A stretch of 64,000 bases of DNA from Pseudomonas fontis. Lineage in GTDB: Bacteria; Pseudomonadota; Gammaproteobacteria; Pseudomonadales; Pseudomonadaceae. Below are positions 37,340-43,056 of the stretch, in pieces. The stretch spans positions 1-64,000 of the forward strand of contig NZ_JAMDGY010000053.1 of assembly GCF_028656955.1 (NCBI RefSeq), in the 5' to 3' direction. Every line of letters begins with the position of its first letter. Position 1 is the first letter of the stretch. The translations under genes and the position numbers were made by a program. The notes beneath the pieces are model-generated. The model saw only the letters and a list, made by a program, of their open reading frames with translations. It did no database searches and was not told the DNA's origin.

Positions 37340-38803
37340 TCAATGCCGCAACCGCCGCCACCCCAGCACCAACCCGGTCCCACTGATCAGCAGGCCGCCC
37401 ACACTCAGCACGATCATCCACACATCCCACAGTGGCCGGTTGTGCAGCAGCGGCAACCAGTCCCAGCTGTGCAGCAGGGCGAACAGCCAGCGCGATGCCC
37501 GCTTGGGCTGATCGAGCACCCCGAGCACTTCACCGGTGTACAGGTCCAGGTGCAGCCAGGTCTGCTGCGGATCATCAAACTTCACCCGCAACACCGGCAG
37601 GCGCTTCTCGATATGCCCCATCATGCTGTGCTCGGCGCGGGCGTAATAGTAGAAGTCGTAGGCCTCCAACTGCTCACTGTGCATCCGCCCCTCAGGCCAT
37701 ACTGCCTTCGCTGCACTTTCCAGCACCTCGCGCGGCAAGCGCGTCAGCACCTGCCCATCGGCCATCGACAGCACCCGCGTGCTGCCCGCGCCGTCATGCC
37801 CGACCAGATACCCGGCCCCCCCGATCAACCGCCATTCCAGCTCGCGCGCCTTGAAACCTTGCCCATCGAAACGCGCCAGTGCCTGCTGCGCGGTCAGTGG
37901 AAACGCCGTGGTCGTCAGCGGCCCAGCCGAATACGCCGCCACCTTCAACGGCGTCGCACTGCTGAACACCTGCCAGGGGTTCATCGACATCAGCCCGCTG
38001 AAGATCCAGGTGATCGCCAGGCTGCCAAATATCAGCCCGCCCAGGTGGTGCCAGCGCGCAAACCCGCGATACGGCGAGCGCGAGCCGCTGCGATACGGGC
38101 GCTGGAAGCGCCAGCGCAACACGCCGATCACCGAACCGAGCAGCGCCATGACCGTCGCCGCCAGCGACAGGTAGATCACGATATTGGTCCAGATCCCGTC
38201 CAGGCCAATGCCGCGCAGCGGGTACAGCCAGTGCAGCCAGGCGCCTACGTAGTTCCAGCCACGCTCCAGCCGGGTGGCATCGCGCACCACCGCGCCGGTT
38301 TGCCCGGAGATGTACAGCAAGGTGTTGTCGCTATCGTCCAGTTCCACGCGCTGCAGCGGACGGTCCGCATCCAGCCCGCGGGAATGGCTCCACAGGTCTT
38401 CGTCCACCGCCCCGCGATATTCGGCGTGTGCCTGCGGCGCGTATTGCCGGGCGCTGGCCAGGGCCTGCTCACGATCAACCGCCGGGATTTTCTGCCCGCT
38501 CACGGCGCTCACCGCCACATTGCTGTGGCCCGGATAAGTGAACAGGTAACGCGGCTCGCCGGCCACCGTGCTCAGGCGCATGCTGGCGGGTGGGCGCAGC
38601 GGGTCGGCCGCCGTCATGGCCGCGTCCAGGCCCACGCTCGGCGCGGGGCTGCCCAGCACCGGCAAATGCAGCAGGTGCTCGCGCGGCGTCAGTTTCGGGT
38701 AGCCGACATAGAGCATGACCACGCCGGACACGAACCACAGCGCCATGAACAGGCACAGCACGATGCCCAGCCAGCGATGCCACAGGTACAGGTAACGCTT
38801 CAT
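37340..38803 (-). CDS. PepSY domain membrane protein
   Basis: A 487-residue inner-membrane protein of the PepSY-associated TM family. LYLWHRWLGIVLCLFMALWFVSG is helix 1 with the conserved His, then a periplasmic region with PepSY domains; GFARWHHLGGLIFG gives a second His pair, LMSMNPW follows, and two more helices lie near 180-205 and 465-485. The conserved histidines suggest haem binding and a ferric-chelate reductase-like role. It is next after a TonB receptor gene, the usual pairing. A strong hairpin sits in the 47-bp gap. ATG 38803 was chosen. Confidence 0.88.
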   Translation of the reverse strand: MKRYLYLWHRWLGIVLCLFMALWFVSGVVMLYVGYPKLTPREHLLHLPVLGSPAPSVGLDAAMTAADPLRPPASMRLSTVAGEPRYLFTYPGHSNVAVSAVSGQKIPAVDREQALASARQYAPQAHAEYRGAVDEDLWSHSRGLDADRPLQRVELDDSDNTLLYISGQTGAVVRDATRLERGWNYVGAWLHWLYPLRGIGLDGIWTNIVIYLSLAATVMALLGSVIGVLRWRFQRPYRSGSRSPYRGFARWHHLGGLIFGSLAITWIFSGLMSMNPWQVFSSATPLKVAAYSAGPLTTTAFPLTAQQALARFDGQGFKARELEWRLIGGAGYLVGHDGAGSTRVLSMADGQVLTRLPREVLESAAKAVWPEGRMHSEQLEAYDFYYYARAEHSMMGHIEKRLPVLRVKFDDPQQTWLHLDLYTGEVLGVLDQPKRASRWLFALLHSWDWLPLLHNRPLWDVWMIVLSVGGLLISGTGLVLGWRRLRH

Positions 38804-38817
38804 CACACAGTTCCTCG

Positions 38818-38844
38818 CAGGCCGGGGCATTCAGCCCCGGCCTG
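38818..38844 (-). terminator. Hairpin between TonB receptor and PepSY genes
   Basis: A perfect 11-base stem (CAGGCCGGGGC / GCCCCGGCCTG, ATTCA loop). No T-run follows on the minus strand, so it may slow decay or reduce read-through rather than end transcription. Confidence 0.55.
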
Positions 38845-38850
38845 TTCCAG

Positions 38851-41019
38851 TCAGAAGCGGGTCTGCACGGCCAGCTCGAACGTCCGTGGCGCGCCCAGGT
38901 AGAGCATGCTCGACGACGTCCAGCGGGCGTACACCTCATCGGTCAGGTTGCGCACCCGCGCGGTAATGCGCGTGTCTGCATCTACCTTGTAGCCGACAAA
39001 CGCGCCGAACACCGTGTACGCCGGGGCATAGCGGGTGTTGGCGGCGTCGGCATACACCGAGGACACGTAGCGGCTGTCACCGCCAATCTGCCAGCTCGGG
39101 TCGATGTCGTAGGTCAACCACAGGTTGGCCACCCGCTCGGGGATGTTGGTCGGGGTGTTGCCCTTGCGCGACACGCTGGTGCCGCCGACGTTCTCGTTGA
39201 ACTCGTCGTACTGGGCATCGACATAGGCAAAGTTGCCCTCGGCCAGCAGTTGCGGGGTGACGCGCAGCGAGGCGGCCACTTCGATGCCGCGTGAGGTCTG
39301 CTTGCCCACCGGCTGGGTCACGCCCGGATTGGCCGGGTCGGCGGTGGCCAGGTTTTTGCGCTCGATCTGGTAGGCGGCAACCGTCGCCGAGCCCAGCCCG
39401 TCGAGGAAGTCGAACTTGCTGCCCACCTCGATCTGCTTGCCGGTGCTCAGGTCGAAGTCACGCACCGTGGCAAAGCTTGCAGTCGAGAGGATGCCAGCCG
39501 GCGGGTCGGCGGCGGTGCTGTACTGCACGTAGACGTTGGCGGTCGGGGTCAGTTCGTAGACCAGGCCAATGCGCCCGGTGGTGGGCTCGTAGACGCGCTT
39601 GAAGTCCAGCGGGTTGTTGGCGTCCACGGCGCGGTAGTTGTGCACCTGCAGGTCGACATGGTCATGGCGCAGGCCGGTCAGCAGCGACAATCGATCGGTC
39701 AACTGCTGGCGGTTCTCGAGGAACACGGCCCAGGTGTCCACGGTGTTCTGGCGGTTCTTCTGGTAGCCGGGGAGCATGCCGGGCAGGTCGTAGAACTTGC
39801 CTGGGTCGAAGTTGCCCGGGTCGACGCTGTCGAACACCCGGTTGATCGAGCGCGGGTAGTTCATCGACACGTTGTGGCTGTAGTCCACCCCCGCCGACCA
39901 CTGGCTGCGCCGGCCGAACAACTGCCCTTCATGCAGCAGTTCCAGGCGGTTGCCATTGAGCTCCTGGTCGTGGCGTTGCAGCAGTGCGTTGGAGCGGATC
40001 ACCCTATTGTTGTCGGCGTTGTAGGCGTAGGTCTCCAGGTTGCGGAAATTACGCTCGGCGTTGTAGTGGTAGAGCGTGTTGCGCAGCGAAGTGTCGTCGT
40101 TTAAGCGGTAGTCGGTGATCGAACGCAGCCAGCGCACGCGCTGCTCGTAGCGGCCATCCTCGACGTTGTAGTTCTCGAAGCGGCGGCTCTCGTCGACCTT
40201 CATTTCGCCGCCCAGCGGGTTGAGCACGGGGCTGCCCCAGTATGGGCTGTCGACCACCTCGTTCTGGTATTCCAAAGCCAAGGTGTGGGACAGCTGGTCG
40301 TTGAAGTCGGTGAGTAGCGAGAAGGCGACGGTCCAGGCATCGCGCTCTTCGCGGTCGACATAGCCGTTGCTGTGGCTGTGGCTGAAATCCAGGCGCGCGT
40401 AGTTGCGGATGCCGTCGCCGTCGTTGAGGGCGTGGTTGAAGCCGAACGAGGTTTCGCTGCTGTCGTAGGAGCCGTACTTGATGCGCCCTTCGTTGAAGTT
40501 TTCGTCGCGGCTGGCCAGCTTGGTGATGTAGTTGATCGAGCCGCCCACGGCGCCGGCGCCGAACAGGAAGCTCGACGGCCCGCCGATGGCCTCGACGCGG
40601 TCGTAGATCCAGCTGTCCACCGGGCGGGCGGCAATCGCGTCGTATTGCACGGTAATGCCGTTGAACAACTGGGTGATCTGCGCGCCGGAAAAGCCCCGGT
40701 AGGCCACCGACCCCGCCGAGCCTGGTGGCGACGCGGCGGTCATGCCGGGTACGCCGGCGAGGGCGTCCTGGGTGGTTTGTGCGCCGCGCTGTTCGAGTTG
40801 TCGATGGTTGACGATATTGACCGAGGCCGGCGTTTCGCGGGGCGTGAGGCCCAGGCGCGAGCCGGTTTGTGATGGCGTATCGAGCAGCACGCCTTCGTGC
40901 GAGTCTTCGACATCGGTGATTTGTACGTCAGGCAGGGTCACGGTGTGATCGGCCATGGCGTTGAACGACAGCGCGCAGAGCAGGGCTGCGCACCCAGGGT
41001 AACGGGAGGTGTTGGTCAT
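38851..41019 (-). CDS. TonB-dependent receptor
   Basis: A 722-residue outer membrane receptor. The signal peptide ends near SFNAMA, then a TonB box-like stretch (TVTLPDVQITDV), a plug domain (TPRETPASVNIVN ... GVPGM ... YRGFSG ... GPSSFLFGAGAVGG) and a 22-strand barrel ending in ...LAVQTRF with a terminal Phe. It is annotated by fold as a siderophore receptor, but it stands with DUF2946 and PepSY genes, and a CusR-like palindrome lies upstream of DUF2946, so copper or a metal chelate is possible. No N-terminal signalling domain. The ATG at 41019 gives MTNTSRYPG. Confidence 0.9.
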   Translation of the reverse strand: MTNTSRYPGCAALLCALSFNAMADHTVTLPDVQITDVEDSHEGVLLDTPSQTGSRLGLTPRETPASVNIVNHRQLEQRGAQTTQDALAGVPGMTAASPPGSAGSVAYRGFSGAQITQLFNGITVQYDAIAARPVDSWIYDRVEAIGGPSSFLFGAGAVGGSINYITKLASRDENFNEGRIKYGSYDSSETSFGFNHALNDGDGIRNYARLDFSHSHSNGYVDREERDAWTVAFSLLTDFNDQLSHTLALEYQNEVVDSPYWGSPVLNPLGGEMKVDESRRFENYNVEDGRYEQRVRWLRSITDYRLNDDTSLRNTLYHYNAERNFRNLETYAYNADNNRVIRSNALLQRHDQELNGNRLELLHEGQLFGRRSQWSAGVDYSHNVSMNYPRSINRVFDSVDPGNFDPGKFYDLPGMLPGYQKNRQNTVDTWAVFLENRQQLTDRLSLLTGLRHDHVDLQVHNYRAVDANNPLDFKRVYEPTTGRIGLVYELTPTANVYVQYSTAADPPAGILSTASFATVRDFDLSTGKQIEVGSKFDFLDGLGSATVAAYQIERKNLATADPANPGVTQPVGKQTSRGIEVAASLRVTPQLLAEGNFAYVDAQYDEFNENVGGTSVSRKGNTPTNIPERVANLWLTYDIDPSWQIGGDSRYVSSVYADAANTRYAPAYTVFGAFVGYKVDADTRITARVRNLTDEVYARWTSSSMLYLGAPRTFELAVQTRF

Positions 41020-41076
41020 CAAGCGAACTCTGGAAATGAGCCAGCGGCCGGTGGCACCTGCTCGGGCAGGCGCAAC

Positions 41077-41101
41077 AAAAAAAGGCCGGTTTTGGGCGGC
41101 C
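41077..41101 (-). terminator. Intrinsic terminator after DUF2946
   Basis: On the minus strand GGCCG pairs with CGGCC across an eight-base loop and is followed by seven T. It lies between DUF2946 and the TonB receptor gene, so the receptor depends on read-through or on its own promoter. Confidence 0.72.
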
Positions 41102-41120
41102 GCACGGGCGGCCTGGGCAG

Positions 41121-41510
41121 TCAGACCAGAGCGGGGGAGGCGCGGGGGTTGGCGGCGGGCCAGCAATAACGCGGCGGGGCTTTGCTGCGCAGCTCGCGGA
41201 CATAGCGGCGTGGGCGACTGATCGCCAGCAGCCAGCCAATGACCAGGCTCAGGCCCAGGCACACCACGGCAGCGGCGCACACTGGGCAGGTTTGCATGCT
41301 GTCCCAACCGGCAACGCTGTCTTCGCTGTAGTCGCTCTTCAGGGTCGGGCCGGGGTTGCCCATGGCGGAACAGAACGCCCCGCCAATGCCGTTGAGCTTC
41401 AGGCCCATCATCTGGCCATGGCCCAGACCGCAGGCGAACAGATTGAACAGGACACAAAAATAGAGCGTCCAGGCAATCAGCGGGCGGTTGGGGGTGGCAG
41501 AGAAGGTCAT
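41121..41510 (-). CDS. DUF2946 family membrane protein
   Basis: A 129-residue protein. A hydrophobic N-terminal segment (WTLYFCVLFNLFACGLG) and a second one (CAAAVVCLGLSLVIGWLLA) surround a CPVC motif (about 75-78). DUF2946 proteins are often found next to copper-related TonB receptors and PepSY proteins, and CPVC could bind metal. It is the first gene of the DUF2946-receptor-PepSY set. Function unproven. Confidence 0.8.
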   Translation of the reverse strand: MTFSATPNRPLIAWTLYFCVLFNLFACGLGHGQMMGLKLNGIGGAFCSAMGNPGPTLKSDYSEDSVAGWDSMQTCPVCAAAVVCLGLSLVIGWLLAISRPRRYVRELRSKAPPRYCWPAANPRASPALV

Positions 41511-41555
41511 GGCGGGGACTTTAGCATCGAACGGTTATGGGCAGAAGGCAAGGTA

Positions 41556-41569
41556 TGACATGAATGTCA
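41556..41569. promoter_or_regulatory. CusR-like palindrome upstream of DUF2946
   Basis: TGACAT-GA-ATGTCA begins 45 bases upstream of the DUF2946 ATG. The E. coli CusR box core is TGACAA-NN-TTGTCA, so arms and spacing agree in all but one position per arm. The 346-bp gap 41511-41856 otherwise holds a decayed REP trace near 41650 and the fabV promoter. Confidence 0.5.
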
Positions 41570-41724
41570 GGGTTGGGCAGTGGACGAGTACGAGTTTTGG
41601 TTTTTTGTGGGGCTTGCGGGCCCCTTCACTCCAGTGAAATTGACCTTTCAGCAAGGCCAGCTCACACAGTGGGTATGTGGGTGGCTTTGCTTTGTACGGT
41701 GTAGGCAGCAACGTCAGCAAACCC

Positions 41725-41752
41725 TTGAAACCGCACGATCAACCCGTAAGAT
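41725..41752 (+). promoter_or_regulatory. Probable fabV promoter
   Basis: TTGAAA (41725-41730), a 16-base spacer and TAAGAT (41747-41752) form a sigma-70 type promoter about 105 bases before the fabV start codon. Confidence 0.5.
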
Positions 41753-41856
41753 GTGTCCGATCTGCCACGGGTGTAGTCTCACCCTCTAATTAACCGGATC
41801 AACCGGCGCCCCAAAACCCCGGTTCCCCACGTATTTTCAATGACGAGGTACAGACA

Positions 41857-43056
41857 TTGGCCATCATTAAACCCAAAGTTCGCGGTTTCATCTGCACCAC
41901 TACGCACCCGAAAGGCTGCGAACTGAACGTACGTGATCAGATCGAGGCAACCCGCAAGCTGGGCTTGCGCAAAGATGGCCCGAAAAAAGTCCTGGTCATC
42001 GGCGCCTCCAGCGGCTACGGCCTGGCTGCACGCATCACCGCCGCCTTCGGCTACGGCGCCGATACCCTGGGTGTGTTCTTCGAGAAGCCAGGCACTGAGA
42101 CCAAGCCCGGCACCGCCGGCTGGCACAACTCCGCCGCCTTCGACAAGTTCGCCAAGGCCGAAGGCCTGTACAGCAAGTCGATCAACGGCGACGCCTTCTC
42201 GCACGAAGCCCGCGCCAAGGTCATCGAGCTGATCAAGAACGAAATGGGCGGCCAAGTCGACCTGGTCGTCTACTCGCTGGCCTCGCCTGTGCGCAAACTG
42301 CCAGACACCGGCGAAGTCATTCGCTCGGTACTCAAGCCCATCGGCCAGCCGTACAAGTCGACCGCCATCGACACCAACAAAGACACCATCATCGAAGCCT
42401 CGATCGAGCCTGCCACCGAGCAGGAAATCGCCGATACCGTCACCGTGATGGGCGGCCAGGACTGGGAGCTGTGGATCAACGCCCTGAGCGACGCCGGCGT
42501 GCTGGCCCCGCAAGCGCGCACCGTGGCCTTCAGCTACATCGGCACCGAAATCACCTGGCCGATCTACTGGCACGGTGCCCTGGGCAAAGCCAAGCAGGAC
42601 CTCGACGAAACCGCCCTGCGCCTGAACCAGAAAGTCGCCGGCGGCGCCAACGTTGCCGTGCTCAAGTCCGTGGTTACCCAGGCCAGCTCGGCCATCCCGG
42701 TAATGCCGCTGTACCTGTCGATGGTCTTCAAGATCATGCAGGAGAAGGGCGTTCACGAAGGCACCCAGGATCAACTGGACCGTCTGTTCCGCGACCGCCT
42801 GTTCCGCGCCGATGGCCAACCAGCCGAACTGGACGAAAAAGGCCGCCTGCGCCTGGACGACTGGGAACTGCGTGACGACGTACAGGATGCCTGCAAGGCA
42901 CTCTGGCCACAGGTGACCACCGAGAACCTGTTCGAACTGACCGACTACGCCGGCTACAAGAGAGAGTTCCTCAAGCTGTTCGGCTTTGAGCGTCAGGATG
43001 TCGACTACGAAGCCGACGTTGCTACCGACACGCCGTTCGACTGCATCGAGCTGTAA
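41857..43056 (+). CDS. fabV: Enoyl-ACP reductase FabV
   Basis: A 399-residue NADH-dependent enoyl-[acyl carrier protein] reductase that completes each fatty acid elongation round. [14 protein letters not shown] is the nucleotide-binding loop, and the [10 protein letters not shown] segment gives the FabV Y-x8-K active-site motif (wider than the Y-x6-K of FabI). FabV enzymes are known to tolerate triclosan. The start is TTG at 41857 with a GAGGT site 7-8 bases upstream; no in-frame ATG upstream is better. Monocistronic, with its own promoter and terminator. Confidence 0.97.

Follow-up and report, generated by a model that had tools for sequence, protein, structure and literature searches.

The window, by which we mean the whole 64,000-nt stretch of Pseudomonas fontis DNA analysed here, carries on its reverse strand a short DUF2946 open reading frame, a TonB-dependent receptor gene and a PepSY_TM gene (Table 1). 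These three families, and the CPVC motif of the DUF2946 protein, had been recognized in the preliminary description, and all of them were confirmed; the DUF2946 domain scores 52.4 bits against PF11162, for which the cut-off is 23.7. Translation of the PepSY_TM gene may actually begin at an in-frame ATG 27 nt downstream of the start given in Table 1. The gene order is that of the Bordetella pertussis cruR-crtA-crpH operon, and the cruR-crtA-PepSY arrangement is also present in relatives. Upstream of the leader gene, fabV is located between sbp, a sulfate-binding-protein gene, and cruR. For the comparisons below, 69 loci from relatives were available, 24 of them supplied by named genomes. No cruR was found in one locus (L026) and six duplicates were dropped, leaving 62 distinct cruR genes.

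Table 1. Features of the operon and its upstream region, in window coordinates
Feature	Position	Strand	Details
PepSY_TM protein gene in the crpH position	37340..38830	-	PF03929, E 6.9e-16
crtA-like TonB-dependent receptor gene	38851..41019	-	722 aa
Intergenic hairpin	41045..41088	-	outer arms 41083-41088 with 41045-41050; inner arms 41067-41076 with 41051-41060
Predicted Rho entry region (C-over-G stretch over the cruR stop)	41079..41198	-	47% C, 27% G
Terminator-like stem followed by T7, between cruR and crtA	41084-41101	-	5 GC pairs
cruR-like DUF2946 upstream ORF	41121..41510	-	129 aa, stop included; PF11162, E 1.1e-13
RASP codons, predicted arrest motif	41133..41144	-	residues 123-126
CPVC codons, predicted copper site	41277..41288	-	residues 75-78
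Predicted -10 hexamer TAAAGT (within TGCTAAAGT)	41518..41523	-	7 nt before the cruR ATG
Palindrome TGACATGAATGTCA	41556..41569	.	46-59 nt upstream of the cruR ATG
fabV	41857-43056		NF043048, 689 bits

The top PDB match of the receptor is 9rvq (E 7e-243), deposited as CrtA of B. pertussis, a solved copper transporter. The next solved chain scores 3e-41, a gap of about 200 orders of magnitude. The ligand site described for B. pertussis CrtA comprises Y130, W265, E337, Q356, H358 and R395, of which the histidine is essential (PMC12914433). The window receptor keeps five of these six residues, as Y126, W261, E329, Q348 and the essential H350, while R395 is replaced by an asparagine (N387).

The DUF2946 gene probably encodes a copper-sensing leader peptide of the CruR type. 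Its CPVC and RASP motifs are separated by 44 residues, and RASP ends three residues before the C-terminus. In CruR of B. pertussis, the spacing between the CXXC and the arrest motif is 45, with a tolerance of one or two residues (PMC9426467); it is 44-46 in 59 of the 62 relatives, the other three being unscored. The window leader has RASP at the position where CruR has RAPP, and strict RAPP is absent from it. The C-terminal motif is RASP in 42 relatives, RAPP in 19 and neither in one. A KAPP sequence, 13 residues upstream of RASP, was dropped as an arrest motif because RASP stands at the conserved spacing.

Of 299 genomes drawn from across the phylum, 41 had a match, giving 53 leaders: 39 with RAPP, six with RASP, five with RGPP and three with apparently spurious motifs (RFRP, RVPP and RRVP). 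All six RASP leaders are from the genus of the window. In the available text of PMC10987492, RASP is named once, for leaders that cluster with SecM, and the RQH motif of that paper admits a serine at the third place. For ApdP, the third residue of the arrest motif is described as partly replaceable by glycine only (PMC12992588), and arrest on RASP may for that reason be weak or absent. The P. fontis genome contains two further DUF2946 leaders, one with a RASP end and one with a RAPP end, which flank a gene for a PCu(A)C copper chaperone (L003; G000:C98:2120-5482). Among the relatives, the cruR genes of four loci (L043-L046; 52-55% identity) have no crtA match within roughly 1.5 kb downstream, so that a cruR-type leader may head other genes there.

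A -10-like promoter hexamer lies close to the cruR ATG, and the message is predicted to start at this ATG, that is, to be leaderless. Such a hexamer, ending 5-9 nt before the ATG, is found in 57 of the 62 relatives; the other five (L022, L186, L189, L190 and L192) have near-matches at the same place. No Shine-Dalgarno sequence precedes cruR in any of the 62. A stricter hexamer pattern is present at 48 of 50 cruR loci (window included), as compared with none of 228 long open reading frames. A wider pattern occurs before one of the latter, and Shine-Dalgarno-like letters precede 55 of them. The cruR ATG was picked by protein length, independently of the hexamer, and in 25 of the 50 loci there is no alternative in-frame start upstream of the chosen one. 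Neither of the other cruR genes in the P. fontis genome has a -10-like hexamer at the start chosen, and the hexamer is likewise missing from most of the phylum-draw leaders outside the crtA-linked group at the ATGs listed. We rejected a leaderless start as a general DUF2946 trait, for lack of support in this genome and in the phylum draw. Since the hexamer is missing in the other cruR genes, the leaderless reading is a prediction for the crtA-linked Pseudomonas group only.

In the region of the cruR stop codon, C exceeds G at all 63 loci (window included), by at least 10 points in 59 of them; at seven other gene ends in the window, the difference lies between -17 and +3. The proline-rich end of the leader partly accounts for this C-rich stretch, which is predicted to serve as the entry region for Rho. 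Further downstream, a GC stem followed by a T run has the appearance of an intrinsic terminator. At this site, 8 of 17 clade members lack a run of four T, which rules out intrinsic termination as the conserved mechanism, although the stem may still act in the window.

The intergenic hairpin co-varies in the P. putida-like clade to which the window belongs. Its fold was drawn by eye from the alignment and the pairs were counted afterwards. In 16 distinct sequences, both bases have changed in five pairs, a count reached by 3 of 500 shuffles. The covariation score of 0.104, versus 0.070, was reached by none of the 500, and further pair types were unexceptional (203 of 500). When L182 and L185 were added, the outer arms paired in 101 of 108 cells, as compared with 93.7 in shuffles (11 of 20000 as high). 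Since the alignment used for the counts also served to draw the fold, the support is weaker than these shuffle figures suggest, and related sequences can exceed shuffles even without structure. The fold that RNAalifold itself proposed for alignment A1 had a covariation term of -0.45 and two pairs changed on both sides; alignment A2, in which the 5' arm was misplaced, was excluded from the counts. For a 5' hairpin adjoining the cruR stop, no pair changed on both sides and we make no claim. The intergenic region alone folds in an ordinary manner (z -0.97), and a search of Rfam over 40900-41900 gave one match, far below the gathering score. The co-varying hairpin might provide the pause of the polymerase called for by the B. 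pertussis model, or it might shield the ribosome site.

The preliminary description had drawn attention to a copper-type palindrome upstream of cruR, and an exact copy was found at the position it gave. This is the sole exact match to TGACATNNATGTCA within the window; relaxing the search to two mismatches gives three matches, versus a mean of 1.2 in shuffles. Perfect 6-2-6 palindromes number 31 in the window and 26 +/- 5 in 20 simulated sequences. A palindrome of this form is ordinary at the density of the window, and it is the particular letters of TGACATGAATGTCA that are rare: they occur at two places in the 6.07-Mb genome, and the reversed control at none. The second genomic copy is located inside a TadA/T2SSE-type ATPase gene.

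By its letters, the palindrome resembles the boxes of heavy-metal response regulators. The near match to the E. coli CusR core TGACAANNTTGTCA, also pointed out earlier, was borne out, with 10 of 12 positions matching and two differing. On its coding strand, the palindrome agrees with the P. aeruginosa CopR consensus CTGACAn5GTAAT at 10 of 11 positions. It has ATGT in common with the CusR/CopR/CzcR site reported in P. paraeruginosa, and also ACAT according to a later passage of the same paper, which prints one half-site as ATTCAT in the abstract and as ATTACAT later (PMC11195947). There, the zinc regulator CzcR reportedly reads the same site as CusR and CopR, so that regulator binding to the palindrome would not by itself imply copper. 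Three response regulators encoded in the P. fontis genome exceed the TIGR01387 heavy-metal cut-off. The site TGACAAAGCTGTAAT precedes a CopA-type multicopper oxidase gene (TIGR01480, 718 bits) by 73 nt and TGACAAAGTTGTAAT lies ahead of one of the three regulators, placements which suggest that this class of box is in use in the genome. The class pattern TGACAn5GTNAT occurs at 29 genomic places, versus 11 for the reversed control, and a match to the pattern alone is therefore weak evidence. Six of the 29 places fall in one tandem repeat (L094-L099; G000:C20:194415-197774), where six copies of one site are spaced by 669 bases in a long, repeat-rich open reading frame that by eye looks like a large RTX-like protein built of near-identical tandem repeats.

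No conservation of the palindrome was seen: when up to two mismatches are allowed, it is absent from the 200 nt upstream of cruR in all 62 relatives, and at three mismatches six relatives have a match. This absence is half of a refuting outcome named in the preliminary description, the other half of which concerns control in those relatives. It is also absent upstream of the other two cruR genes of the P. fontis genome. Among 398 Pseudomonas genomes, the region 41511-41700 is matched in two, its own and one other, the latter through a 27-nt repeat. In eight of ten pairwise alignments, the DNA in common with relatives begins between -16 and -42 relative to the ATG, and in the remaining two it extends weakly to -81 and -84, across the place of the palindrome (-59 to -46). 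The palindrome is thus at the edge of the DNA common to relatives, on the fabV side. In the flanking DNA available, sbp is present in 14 of the 62 relatives, and fabV is beside cruR in none, for many loci within a flank of only about 1.5 kb. We read fabV as a gene that moved next to the copper operon.

Taken as a whole, the locus is likely to be a copper-acquisition operon of the cruR-crtA-crpH type, in which the control by copper would most probably be post-transcriptional. At low copper, a ribosome translating the DUF2946 leader would stall at the C-terminal RASP. The stalled ribosome would deny Rho access to the C-rich sequence surrounding the cruR stop, allowing crtA and crpH to be transcribed. 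Binding of copper to the nascent CPVC would release the stall, and Rho would then end transcription before crtA. Rather more tentatively, we suggest that the crtA-linked CruR of Pseudomonas forms a distinct variant, in which the first ribosome would load directly on the 5' end of the emerging leaderless message and follow the polymerase from codon one, with RASP in place of RAPP as the site of arrest. In the P. putida-like clade, the variant would add the co-varying hairpin, which would hold the polymerase while copper is being read.

This proposal differs from that of the preliminary description, in which the palindrome was a working operator of the CopR/CusR/CzcR type and the main metal control of the operon. 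Besides its letters, and the regulators and class sites found elsewhere in the genome, the position of the palindrome is suitable, as 52 nt separate its centre from the predicted message start downstream and activators usually bind about there. However, none of the 62 relatives and neither of the genome's other cruR genes has it, and its region is matched in the 397 other Pseudomonas genomes only through the 27-nt repeat in one of them. By eye, 3 of its 12 positions deviate from the copA site, and the class pattern has 11 genomic places even when reversed, against 29. Moreover, such a box would activate in copper, while the studied operon of B. pertussis is shut down by copper (PMC9426467). 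We therefore consider a main operator very unlikely, and copper control through the palindrome is not supported. At most, the palindrome would be a lineage-specific extra operator of the CopR/CzcR type. A copper-activated regulator bound there would raise cruR transcription in copper, but the leader would still end the message before crtA, so that even a working box need not turn on uptake in copper. Such a second layer over the CruR control, gained when fabV came beside the operon, seems to us rather unlikely though worth keeping in mind. The position of the palindrome beyond the common DNA in most alignments, next to a fabV that none of the 62 relatives has there, speaks for it; the two alignments that run weakly across the site speak against it, and with one strain of the species covered there is no sign of selection, so that the palindrome may have arisen by chance.

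A different mode of post-transcriptional control, in which the leader acts like CutF and opens an RNA stem-loop to control crtA translation with no need for Rho, also deserves consideration. CutF is described as DUF2946-like (PMC9973294), and the window has both a co-varying hairpin between the genes and, where the ribosome probably binds, an invariant pairing of GCTC with GAGT. Nevertheless, the supported hairpin stops short of the likely ribosome site, the C-over-G stretch fits Rho, and CutF raises its target in copper, all of which make this mode unlikely. As for the substrate, the receptor exceeds the TIGR01783 siderophore-receptor cut-off, as would be expected if the set imported an iron siderophore under Fur control. 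However, the best upstream match to the 19-position Fur consensus has 10 mismatches, which equals the background and agrees with the earlier statement that no convincing Fur box is present. In addition, the best solved relative of the receptor is by far the copper transporter CrtA, and a CruR-type leader heads the set. Iron import is hence highly improbable. The earlier suggestion of copper-chelate rather than iron uptake is well supported, as judged from the CrtA-type receptor, the CruR-type leader, the PepSY_TM protein and the lack of a Fur-like site.

The focus thereby shifts from a single-genome palindrome to a leader peptide, probably copper-sensing, that many Pseudomonas species have. 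The leader differs from the one studied case in its predicted RASP arrest core, its predicted leaderless gene and a candidate pause hairpin, and a leaderless leader gene would mean that ribosome and polymerase are coupled as soon as the first codon is read. The palindrome also offers a caution, in that a convincing regulator box next to a metal operon may turn out to be recent, unshared sequence. Its letters and 2-nt spacer are like those of the CusR/CopR/CzcR boxes of E. coli and P. paraeruginosa (PMC11195947), but the putative box is not conserved and would be expected to act in the opposite direction.

Among known systems, the closest is the B. pertussis cruR-crtA(bfrG)-crpH operon. There, the CXXC of nascent CruR is described as reading copper, which frees the ribosome stalled at RAPP and lets Rho terminate the message ahead of the receptor gene (PMC9426467); the arrest of CruR was later shown in vitro (PMC12992588), and CrtA and CrpH reportedly serve heme-copper oxidases (PMC12914433, PMC13038864). 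CrpH belongs to a PepSY_TM subfamily marked by heme-binding His residues, among them H200 and H444. The two operons are alike in the DUF2946 leader with its CXXC, C-terminal R-A-x-P and same spacing (PMC9426467), and in the C-over-G content at the leader end and the CrtA-type receptor followed by a PepSY_TM protein (PMC9426467, PMC12914433, PMC13038864). They differ in that the window leader has RASP instead of RAPP, its gene is predicted to be leaderless whereas the B. pertussis start was mapped 45 nt upstream (PMC9426467), and its intergenic region is 101 nt long as compared with 162 nt, with a co-varying hairpin in the window's clade. No leaderless or RASP-type CruR is described among the titles and abstract openings that literature searches of open-licence papers listed, and PMC9426467 contains neither "leaderless" nor "RASP".

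In P. aeruginosa, PA0434 (OptJ/CrtA), which by its description belongs to the CrtA cluster and is made at low copper (PMC12914433), is a further likeness. CutF-CutO of Rhodobacter capsulatus likewise has a copper-sensing, DUF2946-like nascent leader and an RNA structure before the next gene; CutF differs in its CXXXC, its proline-rich end and the rise of its target in copper (PMC9973294). The arrest peptides of the SecM and RAPP-like kind are also short exported leaders that end in R-A-x-P (PMC12992588, PMC10987492, PMC10951233), but they sense secretion, unlike the window leader, a predicted copper sensor. Seen against these systems, the operon is of a known kind, with a Pseudomonas-type variant of the leader.
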